Assembly: GCF_008386465.1 (NCBI RefSeq)
Contig: NZ_VUOD01000010.1
Location: forward strand, 1-64,000
DNA from: Arenimonas fontis
GTDB lineage: Bacteria > Pseudomonadota > Gammaproteobacteria > Xanthomonadales > Xanthomonadaceae
DNA length: 64,000 bases
Reading direction: 5' to 3'
The notes below the pieces were generated by a model. That model ran no database searches. It was not told where the DNA came from and saw only the letters and a list, made by a program, of their open reading frames with translations. Shown here piece after piece: positions 17,113 to 22,378 of this stretch. Numbering within the stretch: position 1 is the first letter of the stretch; each line of letters begins with the position of its first letter. The translations under genes and the position numbers were made by a program.

Positions 17113-18123
17113 CTAGAACGCGTGATCGAAGCCGACCTCCCCGGTCACCCCGACCTGGTAGGCCGAGACCCGCCGCTCGAAGAAGTTGGTCAGCTCCTGC
17201 ACATCCTGCAAGTCCATGAACGGAAAGGGGTTGCGGGCACCGAAGTGGCGGGGCAGGCCGAGCTGGGCCAGGCGCTGGTCGGCCACGTATTCCAGGTACT
17301 GGCGCATGTCACGGAGCGACAGGCCGGCGACGCCGCCGCTGAGCACGTCCTCGGCGAAGCGGTACTCGCAGTCCACCGCCTCGCACAGCATCCGCAGCAC
17401 CTGCGCCTTGAGTTCGTCGTCGAACAGGTCGGGCTCCTCCTCGCGCGCCACCCGGATCACCTCGAAGGCGAAGGCCATGTGCCCGCTCTCGTCGCGGAAC
17501 ACCCAGTTGGTGCCGCTGGCCAGGCCATGCAGCAGGCCGCGCGAGCGCAGGTAATAGACGTAGGCGAAGGCGCCGAAGAAGAACAGGCCCTCGATGCAGG
17601 CGGCGAAGCAGACCAGGTTGAGCAGGAACTGCCGGCGCTGGGCCCGGGTTTCCAGGCGTTCGAGCCGGTGCACGCTGTCCATCCAGCGGAAGCAGAACTC
17701 GGCCTTCCGGCGGATCGAGGGGATGTTCTCCACCGCGGCGAAGGCCTTGGCCCGCGCCGCCGGATCGGGCAGGTAGGTATCCAGCAGGGTCAGGTAGAAC
17801 TGCACGTGCAGCGCTTCCTCGTACAGCTGCCGTGACAGGTACATGCGCGCCTCAGGCGCGTTGACGTGCCGGTAGAGGTTGAGCACCAGATTGTTGGCGA
17901 CGATCGAGTCGCCGGTGGCGAAGAAGGCCACCAGCCGCTCGATCAGGTGCCGCTCGGCCGGGCCGACCTTGTGCCTGAGGTCGTTGAGGTCGAGCGAAAA
18001 ATCCACCTCCTCCACGGTCCAGGTATTGCGGATCGCATCGCGATAGCGTTCGTAGAACTGCGGATAGCGCATCGGCCGCAGCGTCAGTTCGAAACCGGGA
18101 TCCAGAAGCTTCGATGTGGTCAT
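17113..18123 (-). CDS. nrdB: Class I ribonucleoside-diphosphate reductase beta subunit
   Basis: The product has 336 residues of the ferritin-like R2 fold. Asp72, Glu103, His106 and Tyr110 occur with the same spacing as E. coli Asp84, Glu115, His118 and the radical Tyr122, so this is a tyrosyl-radical, di-iron type subunit. '[11 protein letters not shown]' and 'DESGHMAF' supply the second set of metal ligands. The C-terminus 'VSAYQVG' region would dock to NrdA. It follows nrdA by 64 bases and is probably cotranscribed under the NrdR/B12 control upstream of nrdA. Confidence 0.95.
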
Positions 18124-18187: not shown

Positions 18188-20560
18188 TCACTGGCAGGCC
18201 TCGCAGGACTCCGGGTTTTCCAGCGAGCAGGCGACGGCGGCGGCAGGAGCGTCCACGGTGGCCTTGGCGATGCGGGTGGCCGGGCGCGAACGCAGGTAGT
18301 AGGTGGTCTTGAGGCCCTTCTTCCAGGCGTACATGTACATGGACGAGAGTGCGCCGATGTTCGGGTTCTCCATGAACAGGTTCAGCGACTGGCTCTGGTC
18401 TATGAAGGCACCGCGGTCGGCGGCCATGTCGATCAGCGAGCGCATGGGGATCTCCCAGGCGGTGCGGTAGACCGCCCGCAGCTCGGCCGGGATCTCGGCG
18501 ATGGCCTGCACCGAGCCTTCGGCCAGCTTGATCCGGTCGCGCATTTCCGGCGTCCACAACCCAAGCTTCTTGAGCTCGGCCACCAGATGACGGTTCACCT
18601 GCAGGAAGTCGCCCGATAGCGTCTCGCGCTTGAACAGGTTGCTGACCTGCGGCTCGATGCACTCGTAGCAACCGGCGATCGAGGCGATGGTGGCAGTGGG
18701 CGCGATCGCCACCAGCAGCGAATTGCGCAGGCCGTGTTCGACGATGCGCTGGCGCAAGGCGTCCCAGCGCGCGGTGTCGGCCGGCCGTACGCCCCAGGCG
18801 TCGAACTGCAGTTCGCCGCGGGCGGCCCGGGTCTGGTCGAAGGCGGGGTGTCGGCCGCGTTCCTGCGCCAGTTCGCAGCTGGCTTGCAGGGCGTGGAAAT
18901 AGATCTCTTCGGCGATGCGCGCCGACAGTGCCCGCGCCTCCGGGGCATCGAAGGGCAGCCGCAGCCGGAAGAACACGTCCTGCAGCCCCATGCAGCCCAG
19001 TCCGACCGGGCGCCAGCGCAGGTTGCCGCGGCGGGCCGACTCGATCGGGTAGAAGTTCAGGTCGATCACCCGGTCGAGCTGGCGCACCGCCAGGCGCACG
19101 GTATCGGCCAGCCGCTCGAAATCGAAGCCGTCTTCGCCCAGGTGCCGGGCCAGGTTGATCGAACCGAGATTGCACACGGCCGTCTCGTCGGCGCCGGTCA
19201 CTTCCAGGATTTCGGTGCACAGGTTGGACAGGTGGATGACGTTGCCGGGCCGGGCGGTCTGGTTGCCGGCACGGTTGCACTTGTCCTTGAAGGTCATCCA
19301 GCCGTTGCCGGTCTGGGCCAGGGTGCGCATCATCTTTCCGTACAGCTCGCGGGCGCGCAGGCTGCGCACCGCCAGGCCGCGGGCCTCGGCCTGTTCGTAG
19401 GCGGCATCGAAAGCCTCGCCGTACAGGTCGGTCAGCTCCGGCACCCGGGCCGGATCGAACAGCGACCAGTGCTGGTCGGCCTCGACCCGGCGCATGAACA
19501 GGTCCGGGATCCAGTTGGCCAGGTTGAGGTTGTGCGTGCGCCGGGCTTCGTCGCCGGTGTTGTCGCGCAGTTCCAGGAACTCCTCGACGTCGGCATGCCA
19601 GGGCTCGAGGTAGACGCAGGCCGCGCCCTTGCGCCGGCCACCCTGGTTCACCGCCGCCACCGAGGAATCCAGGGTCTTGAGCCAGGGCACGATGCCGTTG
19701 CTGTGGCCGTTGGTGCCGCGGATCAGCGCGCCGCGCGAACGGACCCGGGTCCAGCCCACGCCGATGCCGCCGCTGAACTTGCTCAGCTTGGCGATGTCGG
19801 CATAACGCTCGTAGATGGACTCCAGGGTGTCCTGCGGCGAGTCGAGCAGGAAGCAGCTCGACAGCTGCTCGTGGCGGGTGCCGGCGTTGAACAGGGTCGG
19901 CGAGCTGGGCAGGTAGTCCAGGCCGGCCATGCGCCGGTACAGGGCCAGGGCCTCGGGCACGTCCTCGCTGAGCGCGCAGGCCACCCGCAGGAAAAACTGC
20001 TGCGGCGTCTCGATCACCGTGCGCGCGGTCGGATGCCGCAGCAGGTAGCGGTCGTACAGGGTACGCAGGCCGAAGTAGTCGAAACGCAGGTCGAAGGACG
20101 GGTCGAGGGCGTCGTTGAGCTTGCGCGCGTTGGCCTGGACGAAACCCAGCAGACGGTCGTTGACCAGGCCAAGGTCGTGGCCGCGCTGCACCGATTGGGA
20201 AAACGCGTGGATCTCCTGGCCGGCCACTTCCTTCTCGATCAGCCCGGCCAGCAGGCGCGCGGCCAGGCGGCCGTACTCCGGCTCTTCGCCCGAGAGCAGG
20301 GCGGCGGTGCGGATGGACAGCTCGTCCAGCTCGCGGGTGCTGGCGCCGTCGTACAGGCCGGAGATGGTGCGGGTGGCCACGCGCATCGGATCCACCGCAT
20401 GCAGGCCCTCGCAGCAGCGGGTGACGGCGCGGACGATCTTGTTCAGGTCCACCGGCTCGCGCCGGCCATTGCGCTTGGTGACGGTCATGCCGGCATTGGC
20501 CGGCGGCGGGGTGAGCTGGAAGGGCGGCGCCTCGGGGGCGGGGGCGACGGTCTGGTTCAT
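18188..20560 (-). CDS. nrdA: Class Ia-type ribonucleoside-diphosphate reductase alpha subunit
   Basis: The product has 790 residues. An ATP-cone lies at the N-terminus ('VTKRNGRREPVDLNKIVRAV'), which usually gives dATP inhibition of overall activity. The catalytic domain has 'SSCFLLDSPQDTLESIY', 'GIGVGWTRVRSRGA', 'NLCTEI' and 'CNLGSINL'. It ends in C-x-x-C (SCEACQ), the shuttle cysteines reduced by thioredoxin or glutaredoxin. It makes deoxyribonucleotides aerobically. The ATG at 20560 has GGAG nine bases upstream; the frame is open back to a GTG at 20764 but that extension has no protein-like composition. Confidence 0.96.
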   Translation of the reverse strand: MNQTVAPAPEAPPFQLTPPPANAGMTVTKRNGRREPVDLNKIVRAVTRCCEGLHAVDPMRVATRTISGLYDGASTRELDELSIRTAALLSGEEPEYGRLAARLLAGLIEKEVAGQEIHAFSQSVQRGHDLGLVNDRLLGFVQANARKLNDALDPSFDLRFDYFGLRTLYDRYLLRHPTARTVIETPQQFFLRVACALSEDVPEALALYRRMAGLDYLPSSPTLFNAGTRHEQLSSCFLLDSPQDTLESIYERYADIAKLSKFSGGIGVGWTRVRSRGALIRGTNGHSNGIVPWLKTLDSSVAAVNQGGRRKGAACVYLEPWHADVEEFLELRDNTGDEARRTHNLNLANWIPDLFMRRVEADQHWSLFDPARVPELTDLYGEAFDAAYEQAEARGLAVRSLRARELYGKMMRTLAQTGNGWMTFKDKCNRAGNQTARPGNVIHLSNLCTEILEVTGADETAVCNLGSINLARHLGEDGFDFERLADTVRLAVRQLDRVIDLNFYPIESARRGNLRWRPVGLGCMGLQDVFFRLRLPFDAPEARALSARIAEEIYFHALQASCELAQERGRHPAFDQTRAARGELQFDAWGVRPADTARWDALRQRIVEHGLRNSLLVAIAPTATIASIAGCYECIEPQVSNLFKRETLSGDFLQVNRHLVAELKKLGLWTPEMRDRIKLAEGSVQAIAEIPAELRAVYRTAWEIPMRSLIDMAADRGAFIDQSQSLNLFMENPNIGALSSMYMYAWKKGLKTTYYLRSRPATRIAKATVDAPAAAVACSLENPESCEACQ

Positions 20561-20784
20561 CCTGGTCTCCGGTGCGTGGCGCACGGGTCGCCGCCTTTCC
20601 CTCGAAGGCGGCGCACGGGGGCGGACACCGGCGCCGGGCGCCGCGCGACCACGCCCCCGCGGGCGTACGAGTCTGGCCAGGATGGAGGCAGGGTGTCGCA
20701 GGGCCCGCGACGGGGCGGCCCGGAGACACCGGCCGCCTCCCCCCGGAGACCCTGGGCCGGTCACCGCGCGGCGTGCTTCGCGCG
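20561..20784 (-). other. nrdA leader between riboswitch and start codon
   Basis: About 220 bases separate the B12 box from the nrdA ATG. They are very GC-rich. I see a 7-bp hairpin (20764-20785, arms CCGCGCG/CGCGCGG) next to the B12 box, no T-run, and no convincing small gene. How riboswitch state reaches translation or termination over this distance is not visible. Confidence 0.5.
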
Positions 20785-20970
20785 GCTGTCGGCAGGTCTT
20801 CGGGCTCGCGGACGCGAGGCGCGGACGCCTCTCCTACTGGCCGTCGCTTCCCGGGCCGCGGGGGCCCAGTGCCTGTGACGGCGGTCGTTTCCACATACCG
20901 CTGCGGGGCAGCGCCGGAGTCGCACCGGCTTCCCTATTAACCCTTCCGCCTCGGCGGCGGTCGGGACCGA
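20785..20970 (-). promoter_or_regulatory. Cobalamin (B12) riboswitch in the nrdAB leader
   Basis: Read on the minus strand the conserved core (20946-20896) contains GGGTTAATAGGGAAGCC, then GGTGCGACTCCGG, GCTGCCCCGCAGCGGTA, in the canonical order of AdoCbl riboswitches. The B12 box AGCCCGAAGACCTGCC lies at the 3' end (about 20807-20792). Only the peripheral arm between them varies. It should bind adenosylcobalamin in the mRNA leader and lower nrdAB expression. Such switches in front of class I reductases are known where a B12-dependent class II reductase is also present. Confidence 0.92.
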
Positions 20971-20973
20971 CGG

Positions 20974-21021
20974 CCACAAGATATAGGGGCCGTCGGAGAG
21001 CGTCAACGCAAGATATTGTTT
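20974..21021 (-). promoter_or_regulatory. nrdA promoter embedded in two NrdR boxes
   Basis: Two 16-base sites, at 20974-20989 and 21006-21021, match the NrdR consensus aCACwATATaTwGTGt at about 12 and 13 positions. They lie 32 bases apart, the three-turn spacing usual for paired NrdR boxes. Between and within them, on the minus strand, lies TTGACG (21006-21001), 17 bases, then TATCTT (20983-20978), a good sigma70 promoter. Transcription would start near 20971, directly ahead of the riboswitch. NrdR binding would block this promoter. Confidence 0.8.
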
Positions 21022-21076
21022 AGCCTGGCTGTCACCCCGCCCAAGCCCGGCACCGCTGCAGCGGCCGCGGCAGGGC

Positions 21077-22378
21077 TCAGCCGGCCTCGTGCAGGTAATC
21101 CAGGGCCACCTGCAGCATGGCCCGGGTGCCCACCTTGAGGGCCTGCTCGTCCAGGAAGAACTCGGGCGAGTGGTTGGACGGCGCCGTGAGCGGATCCTGG
21201 CCGGCCGGGGTGGCACCGACGAAGAAGAAGAAGCCGGGCACCTCGCGGGCGTAGTAGCTGAAGTCCTCGGCACCCATCACCAGGCCCATTTCCACCACGT
21301 TCTCGCGGCCGACCACCTTCTCCAGGCTGGGCACGGCGCGCGCGGTCAGGGCCGGGTGGTTCACCGTCACCGGATTGCCCTTGCTGTCCGGCACCTGAGC
21401 CACGGCGGTCGCGCCGTGGGCGTGGGCGACCGACTCGGCCACGTTCTTCAGGTCGGCGAACACCGCCTGGCGCATGCCCTCGTCGAAGGTGCGGATGGTG
21501 CCGACCAGTTCCACCTGGTCGGGGATGATGTTGTAGCGGATACCGCCGTTGATGGCGCCGAAACTGACCACCACCGGCAGGCGCGAAATATCCTGACGCC
21601 GGCTGACGATGCTTTGGGCGGTGCCGACGATGTCGGCCGCGGCGACGATCGGGTCTACCCCGCCCCAGGGCCGCGAGCCGTGCGTCTGCCGGCCCTTGAC
21701 CACGATGTTGAAGCGGTCGGAGGCGGCCATGGTCGGGCCGCTGCGGAAGCCGACCTGGCCGGCGTTGAGCGTGCTGAAAACGTGCAGGCCGAACACCGCC
21801 TCCGGCCGGAAGCGCTCGAAGACGCCCTGCCGCAGCATTTCCTCGGCGCCACCCTCCTCGCCGTCGGGCGGGCCTTCCTCGGCCGGCTGGAAGATGAAGA
21901 GCACCTCGCCGGGCAGCTCGTCCTTCATCGCCGCCAGGGCCTCGGCCACGCCCATCAGGATGCCGGTATGGGCGTCGTGGCCGCAGGCGTGCATCACGCC
22001 CGTGCTTTGGCCGCGAAAGACGGTCGTGACCTTCGAGGCGAAGGGCAGGCCGGTGCGCTCGGTCACCGGCAGCGCGTCCATGTCGGCGCGCAGGGCGATG
22101 CGCGGACCGGGCCGGCCGCCGCGCAGCACGGCGGTGACGCCGGTGGTGGCGATGCCGGTGCGCACGTCCTCCAGGCCGAGCGCGCGCAGGTGCTCGGCCA
22201 CCAGCCCGGCGGTCCGCACCTCGCGGTTACCCAGTTCCGGATGCTGGTGGATGTCGCGACGCCAGGCCTGGACCTTGGCGTCCACGGCGGCGGCCAGCGC
22301 TTCGACATCCGGTGTTCGCGCGGCGGCGGCGGACGACAGGGCGGCGGCGAGGGCGGCGGCAAGCAGCAAGTGGCGCAT
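21077..22378 (-). CDS. Exported M20-family amidohydrolase
   Basis: The product has 433 residues with a signal peptide (1-20). The M20 metal-binding residues appear in 'DIHQHPELGNRE', 'LRADMDALPV', 'MHACGHDAHTGILMG' and 'FQPAEEGP', and later in 'GAEDFSYYAREVPGFFFFVG'. This is the hippurate/N-acyl-amino-acid hydrolase subgroup, with a dimerisation insert in the middle. It probably cleaves N-acylated amino acids in the periplasm; the exact substrate is unknown. It stands alone, upstream of the nrdA promoter on the same strand. Confidence 0.88.
   Translation of the reverse strand: MRHLLLAAALAAALSSAAAARTPDVEALAAAVDAKVQAWRRDIHQHPELGNREVRTAGLVAEHLRALGLEDVRTGIATTGVTAVLRGGRPGPRIALRADMDALPVTERTGLPFASKVTTVFRGQSTGVMHACGHDAHTGILMGVAEALAAMKDELPGEVLFIFQPAEEGPPDGEEGGAEEMLRQGVFERFRPEAVFGLHVFSTLNAGQVGFRSGPTMAASDRFNIVVKGRQTHGSRPWGGVDPIVAAADIVGTAQSIVSRRQDISRLPVVVSFGAINGGIRYNIIPDQVELVGTIRTFDEGMRQAVFADLKNVAESVAHAHGATAVAQVPDSKGNPVTVNHPALTARAVPSLEKVVGRENVVEMGLVMGAEDFSYYAREVPGFFFFVGATPAGQDPLTAPSNHSPEFFLDEQALKVGTRAMLQVALDYLHEAG

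Follow-up and report, generated by a model that had tools for sequence, protein, structure and literature searches.

The leader of the oxygen-dependent class I ribonucleotide reductase operon nrdAB in our window (the whole 64,000-nucleotide stretch of DNA that was analysed) carries a cobalamin riboswitch aptamer, and the 213 bases between this aptamer and the nrdA start codon (20774 to 20560) form three hairpins, H1, H2 and H3, each with C[GNGG]G at its loop (Table 1). With a little more than even confidence, we propose that nrdAB is governed by an NrdR-controlled promoter and by a cobalamin riboswitch whose tandem L13-like hairpins, seen by comparison with relatives, would serve as docking partners of the aptamer.

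Table 1. Positions of the features of the nrdAB locus in the window.
Feature	Position	Strand	Evidence
nrdB, class I reductase small chain	17113..18123	-	PF00268, 264.8 bits
nrdA, class I reductase large chain, ATG start	18188..20560	-	TIGR02506, 732.9 bits (cut-off 341.05); ATP-cone domain
Small hairpin GTGCG-CCA-CGCAC, directly before Shine-Dalgarno GGAG (20567-20570)	20572..20584	-	base-paired in the leader's minimum-energy fold
H3, start-proximal L13-like hairpin, loop GAGG at 20600-20603	20587..20616	-	12 pairs, -18.5 kcal/mol
H2, second L13-like hairpin, loop GCGG at 20657-20660	20650..20667	-	local fold -15.3 kcal/mol; similar to the metE-leader H2 hairpin
H1, first L13-like hairpin, loop GGGG at 20741-20744	20730..20759	-	both-sided changes in 8/9 consensus pairs; local fold -18.7 kcal/mol
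Hairpin CCGCGCG-AAGCACGC-CGCGCGG between aptamer and H1	20764..20785	-	both-sided changes in 6/7 consensus pairs
Cobalamin riboswitch aptamer, L5 = CCCCG; GACCTGCC, part of the B12 box, begins at 20798	20774..20986	-	RF00174, 98.4 bits
NrdR-like box 2, CCCCTATATCTTGTGG, overlaps the -10 element	20974..20989	-	4 mismatches to the assumed consensus; second best site of the window
Sigma-70-type promoter TTGACG-N17-TATCTT	20978..21006	-	1 found, 0.0 expected from shuffles
NrdR-like box 1, AAACAATATCTTGCGT	21006..21021	-	3 mismatches to the assumed consensus; best site of the window

The two genes form a class I operon on the minus strand, and in a quick tree of NrdA the rows nearest to the window were two Arenimonas sequences. 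The genome (2.63 Mb in 32 contigs, completeness listed as 99.97%) also encodes both proteins that the sequence-only reading had proposed to look for, namely NrdR (TIGR00244, 203.6 bits against a cut-off of 124.65) and a second large reductase chain, NrdJ (TIGR02504, 566.5 bits against 399.95; nrdA itself scores 354.1 on this profile). A B12-repressed isozyme pair calls for a B12-dependent counterpart in the same genome, and NrdJ is that counterpart. The NrdJ frame (L004:1189-4461, contig C5) has an in-frame insert with a LAGLIDADG domain (PF14528, E 1.2e-24) between its two halves; by its look it is an intein, and an intein-splicing model scored under its cut-off on it. The NrdJ matches of six relatives (G003, G020, G040, G051, G052 and G070) are interrupted at the same profile position, within one long frame. 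Searches of the window's own genome for MetE and for CobQ gave no match, and the cell therefore probably imports B12 and depends on the imported B12. Two cobalamin riboswitches are present in the genome, one at nrdAB and the other upstream of what reads as a TonB-dependent receptor gene.

Upstream of the operon, only one promoter-like site was found in 20500-21100, the one already proposed from the letters, and its -10 element falls inside NrdR-like box 2. The two 16-mers that had been pointed out over this promoter, 32 bp apart, proved to be the two best sites of the window when scored against ACACWATATATWGTGT, which we take to be the NrdR consensus; the third-best site in the 64 kb has 6 mismatches. 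Among the 77 nrdA loci used (of 80), box pairs exactly 32 apart occur in 62 at no more than 6 mismatches and in 46 at no more than 5. The next commonest spacings at the looser threshold, 34 (17 loci) and 30 (16), are offsets of 2 on the same sites, and a 2-base self-overlap of NrdR-like sites, seen in 40 loci, was left out of the ranking. An nrdR gene in the genome and a 16-bp box pair at fixed spacing over the promoter, the marks of an NrdR regulon, are thus both found here, with the assumed consensus as the yardstick. The nrdJ gene likewise has NrdR-like sites (no more than 5 mismatches) in its upstream region in 23 of 51 loci, that of the window's own genome included. Judging from the promoter spacing, transcription would start at the first bases of P1, so that the RNA would begin with the aptamer.

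The claim of a cobalamin riboswitch in the nrdA leader is borne out by Rfam, in which the RF00174 match is full-length (model positions 1-189, B12 box present; E 2.4e-23 for the whole window) against a gathering score of 31.5; only two other Rfam families matched the leader, both far under their gathering scores. The expression platform of class I corrinoid riboswitches carries a loop, L13, with which loop L5 pairs, as the accessible text of PMC10653944 and PMC11260477 describes. The cobalamin class is characterized by a C-rich L5 and by a P13-L13 hairpin whose loop is G-rich, and both are seen here: L5 is CCCCG (as in 61 of 62 leaders, the window included) and H1 has a GNGG loop. The described cases have a single L13, whereas the window has three L13-like hairpins; these extra hairpins, whose docking is proposed, set the variant apart and do not exclude the leader from the class. 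H1 is taken here to be the ordinary L13, with H2 and H3 as additional L13-like loops, because their GNGG or GGNGG loops offer NGG to the CCCCG of L5. The gap of about 200 bases between riboswitch and ATG, said earlier to lack a T-run, gave no terminator-like site in a search of 20500-21100, and an intrinsic terminator in the leader was rejected. The sequence-only reading had left the output mechanism open; it had missed the conserved hairpins in this gap, and the tandem L13-like hairpins now provide a candidate answer.

The predicted link to a B12-dependent reductase holds beyond this genome. Counting as riboswitch a match within 2 kb before nrdA, and as nrdJ a match over the cut-off, 58 of the 77 loci have both, 12 neither, 3 nrdJ only (L025, L054 and L076) and 4 the riboswitch only. 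The last four comprise a locus whose NrdJ is in two frames (L042), one with a partial match under the cut-off (L051), a metagenome bin of 2.5 Mb (L061) and a record labelled Tolypothrix (L046). The nrdA of the latter, labelled Tolypothrix campylonemoides, groups with Lysobacter, and the record is probably a contamination. On the tree, at least 4 changes of the riboswitch label are needed, 3 of them forced by well-supported branches. The 12 'neither' cases amount to about two independent events, since ten are Stenotrophomonas and the others are L038 and L039; nrdJ over the cut-off is absent in 10 of the 11 riboswitch-less Stenotrophomonas loci and in these two. The co-occurrence count has to be read with caution, as 10 of the 12 genomes scored as nrdJ-less have a diverged NrdJ-like frame of 551 to 923 aa that matches TIGR02504 in part and under the cut-off (in Stenotrophomonas G010, G013, G015, G017, G022, G025, G028, G029, G032 and G036). 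The exception within the genus, Stenotrophomonas sp. ISL-67 (L025), has an nrdJ with an insert over the cut-off and an nrdA without riboswitch.

Decay of the switch can be followed in Stenotrophomonas. Three loci (L015, L018 and L022) retain H1 along with the beginning of P1 and a B12 box that has mutated, two others (L025 and L041) retain H1, and in L020, L027, L030, L033, L034 and L037 no C[GNGG]G motif was found within 300 nt of the start. The start-proximal loop is absent from all 11 aptamer-less loci, in favour of tandem docking; H1 is kept in 5 of the 11, and this persistence counts against it. We had at first read this persistence of H1 in five loci as a sign that it works apart from the aptamer, a reading dropped in favour of L13 given the L5/L13 pairing in the accessible text of PMC11260477. 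This series, in which nrdJ is missing, the aptamer is degraded stepwise and the start-proximal loop has been lost, amounts to a natural experiment. It suggests that the switch persists where a substitute that depends on B12 is present.

To see how common the hairpins are, we compared 62 nrdAB leaders with 80 riboswitches fetched from the same relatives, 18 at metE and 62 in other cobalamin leaders. With bulges allowed, at least two L13-like hairpins occur in 50 of the 62 nrdAB, 16 of the 18 metE and 1 of the 62 other leaders. Leaders with 0, 1, 2 and 3 hairpins number 1, 11, 35 and 15 for nrdAB; those with 1, 2 and 3 number 2, 13 and 3 for metE, and those with 0, 1 and 2 number 8, 53 and 1 for the others. 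Mean hairpins per leader were 2.03 against 0.24 in shuffles for nrdAB, 2.06 against 0.13 for metE and 0.89 against 0.15 for the others, most of which have a single such hairpin, for example CTCGC[GGTGG]GCGAG. The contrast rests partly on bulged stems, since only 17/62, 12/18 and 4/62 leaders, respectively, keep two or more hairpins when a stem must have at least 5 pairs and no bulge. Such bulge-free C[GNGG]G hairpins still number 80 in the 62 nrdAB leaders against 3.7 in shuffles, and stems of at least 6 pairs have a density of 1.47 per kb in nrdA leaders against 0.084 per kb on the same strand elsewhere in the 80 loci, counts that are not independent as the leaders are kin. In the fetched stretch, 18/18 metE leaders and 13/62 other leaders have one or more bulge-free GNGG tetraloop hairpins; for the others this stretch often runs into coding sequence. 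The covariation of H1 (Table 1) comes from 54 sequences, of which 14 and 13 have a break or gap at two outer pairs.

The metE leaders (L139, L146, L147, L185, L186, L197 and others) carry, besides GNGG hairpins, a strongly conserved H2 hairpin, TTCGCCCGNGGGGGCGAAGGTC. Near their start, TTCCTC followed by GAGGA, seen by eye, looks like a hairpin that would hide the Shine-Dalgarno sequence. Of 200 genomes of the order, 33 had a match to an H2-type pattern, against 7 matches of the reversed control pattern. Loci were obtained for 30 of these 33 sites: 24 belong to metE leaders, preceded by a cobalamin core and B12 box (23 assigned by motif, L225 read by eye), and the other 6 lie elsewhere and have no B12 box. 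The exact pattern is not matched by the window's own H2, and the match in its genome (L232) is elsewhere. As most sites are metE leaders behind a cobalamin riboswitch, the GNGG hairpins were rejected as a free-standing motif. They were likewise rejected as a general reductase element, given that GNGG hairpins with at least 5 pairs are absent from 42 of the 51 sequences before nrdJ; the nrdJ of the window's genome is among the nine that have them, with two, a point against the tandem-L13 reading.

These data also bear on the idea that the GNGG hairpins are sites for an RNA-binding protein (CsrA/RsmA-like or unknown), through which nrdAB and metE would receive a third input. Hairpins in tandem that share a constant loop, the H1 hairpins without aptamer in Stenotrophomonas and the pair at the window's own nrdJ are what such sites would look like. 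A protein would, however, leave unaccounted for the placement of the H2-type pattern behind cobalamin riboswitches (24 of 30 loci), the scarcity of such hairpins before nrdJ and the fit of the loop to the L13 complement of L5, and we regard this explanation as highly improbable.

Further loci were sampled from the class and phylum, and 8 of 51 have at least two L13-like hairpins before the first reading frame. Six of the eight (L278, L282, L285, L287, L291 and L295) are among nine loci of one proteobacterial family (f56), before TonB-receptor-like genes. In five of them the loops lie at +46 to +59 and +147 to +159; in L287 they lie at +133 and +232, the position of the box being unsure. In the six leaders the second loop is 17-23 nt before the start. 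Some Myxococcota leaders (L084 and L212) also have two L13-like hairpins.

The placement of the loops points to two anchors. Of 55 leaders, 48 have a loop 46-62 nt downstream of the B12 box (5.0 in shuffles) and 44 have a C[GNGG]G loop 38-50 nt upstream of the start codon (2.7 in shuffles, maximum 8 in 200 rounds), while the lengths of these leaders range from 100 to 387 nt. The L13-like hairpins are anchored at both the aptamer and the start codon, the loop of H3 in the window being about 43 nt before the nrdA ATG. All 44 terminal loops sit on hairpins of at least 6 pairs, 42 of them within 2 kcal/mol of the local optimum, in constrained local folds that lean towards the hairpin tested. There are 15 different 5-nt arms among the 44 with the C[GNGG]G loop kept. 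Two results count against tandem docking: RNAalifold returned no consensus structure for the alignment of the terminal hairpin, and the invariance of L5 leaves no L5-L13 covariation to see.

It could be that only H1 is a true L13 and that H2 and H3 are structural elements with similar loops (spacers, nuclease shields, or pause or anti-Rho elements); output would then run through one kissing loop followed by Rho-dependent termination or Shine-Dalgarno occlusion downstream. The published cobalamin riboswitches have one L13 in the text accessible to us, no terminator-like site was found in 20500-21100, and many Gram-negative cobalamin riboswitches show RNA-seq signs of transcriptional action, according to the accessible part of PMC12121620. 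A merely structural H3 would nevertheless be hard to reconcile with a loop that stays constant while its arms vary, with the fixed distance to the start codon and with its loss from every aptamer-less locus. We therefore consider this simpler explanation rather unlikely, and keep to tandem docking hairpins as the preferred reading.

In the minimum-energy fold of the isolated leader, H1 is open and its 5' arm lies on the Shine-Dalgarno sequence, which also counts against tandem docking. The small hairpin before the Shine-Dalgarno sequence is paired in this fold and was seen in relatives by eye only. H1 might then act in this species mainly as an anti-Shine-Dalgarno element, its 5' arm GGUCUCCGG pairing with CCGGAGACC at the nrdA ribosome-binding site and the closure of H1 freeing that site. 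The duplex has -19.2 kcal/mol in the window and -13.4 and -13.6 in L006 and L007. Over 45 leaders, however, own pairs were no better than swapped ones (1225 of 5000 permutations as low), so a conserved role of this kind was rejected; moreover, H1 stabilised by B12 would activate nrdAB, contrary to the expected logic. This explanation appears improbable even for the window.

The preferred model, with tandem docking hairpins, would work as follows. By analogy with the known NrdR system, NrdR would block the nrdAB promoter through its two boxes when dATP is high. RNA escaping this block would start with the riboswitch, and B12, on binding the aptamer, should switch nrdAB off, since NrdJ can then do the work. 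The signal would leave the aptamer through L13-type kissing hairpins, of which three are on offer, H1 near the aptamer, H2 in the middle and H3 near the ATG, each presenting NGG to the CCCCG of L5. The B12-bound aptamer could dock H1 during RNA synthesis, and a later docking of H3 beside the start codon would stop translation even with the aptamer more than 200 nt away.

The look-alike hairpins after the switch suggest an undescribed route for the B12 signal to reach the gene. That they represent a variant cobalamin riboswitch architecture, in which two or three kissing-loop acceptors follow in tandem, an L13 fixed to the aptamer and another to the start codon, is a tentative proposal that we put just short of an even chance. 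If true, one aptamer would act over 200-300 nt, perhaps on transcription first and then on translation, and the tandem architecture would be shared by nrdAB and metE leaders of Xanthomonadales, some Myxococcota and the TonB-receptor-type leaders of another proteobacterial family. For long leaders without terminator, L13-like loops in tandem, fixed at two anchors, make a concrete hypothesis that is testable by single-base changes.

Some parts of this system have known parallels. The Streptomyces nrdABS operon (Borovok 2006) is reportedly a class I operon under a B12 riboswitch and NrdR control with NrdJ in the genome; it is alike by description, with the difference that its leader is actinobacterial. 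Another is nrdAB of Propionibacterium acnes, with an NrdR box on the promoter, an annotated cobalamin riboswitch in the leader, nrdJ elsewhere and a regulation explained by B12; it has one NrdR box where the window has two, and repeated leader hairpins go unmentioned in the accessible text (PMC3848588). Double control by NrdR and a cobalamin riboswitch is thus of an already known kind, as it has been described for P. acnes. Its reading in the window, with the regulation that it predicts, is supported by the Rfam match, by the presence of nrdR and nrdJ and by the co-occurrence of riboswitch and nrdJ. For tandem L13 loops, we found no report in the open-access literature searched, which covers few subscription papers and is no proof of novelty. 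The nearest counterparts of the hairpins are the metE riboswitches of P. megaterium, in which L5 CCG pairs with L13 CGG (PMC10653944), and of M. tuberculosis, in which L5 CCC pairs with L13 GG (PMC11260477), both shown by mutation in the accessible text. As in our leaders, a C-rich L5 is paired there with a G-rich L13, and the internal loop of P. megaterium P13 resembles the 5' bulge of H1 (PMC10653944). Both differ from the nrdAB leaders in having, as far as the accessible text of PMC10653944 and PMC11260477 goes, one L13, whereas here two or three L13-like hairpins stand in tandem, one of them at a fixed distance from the start codon.
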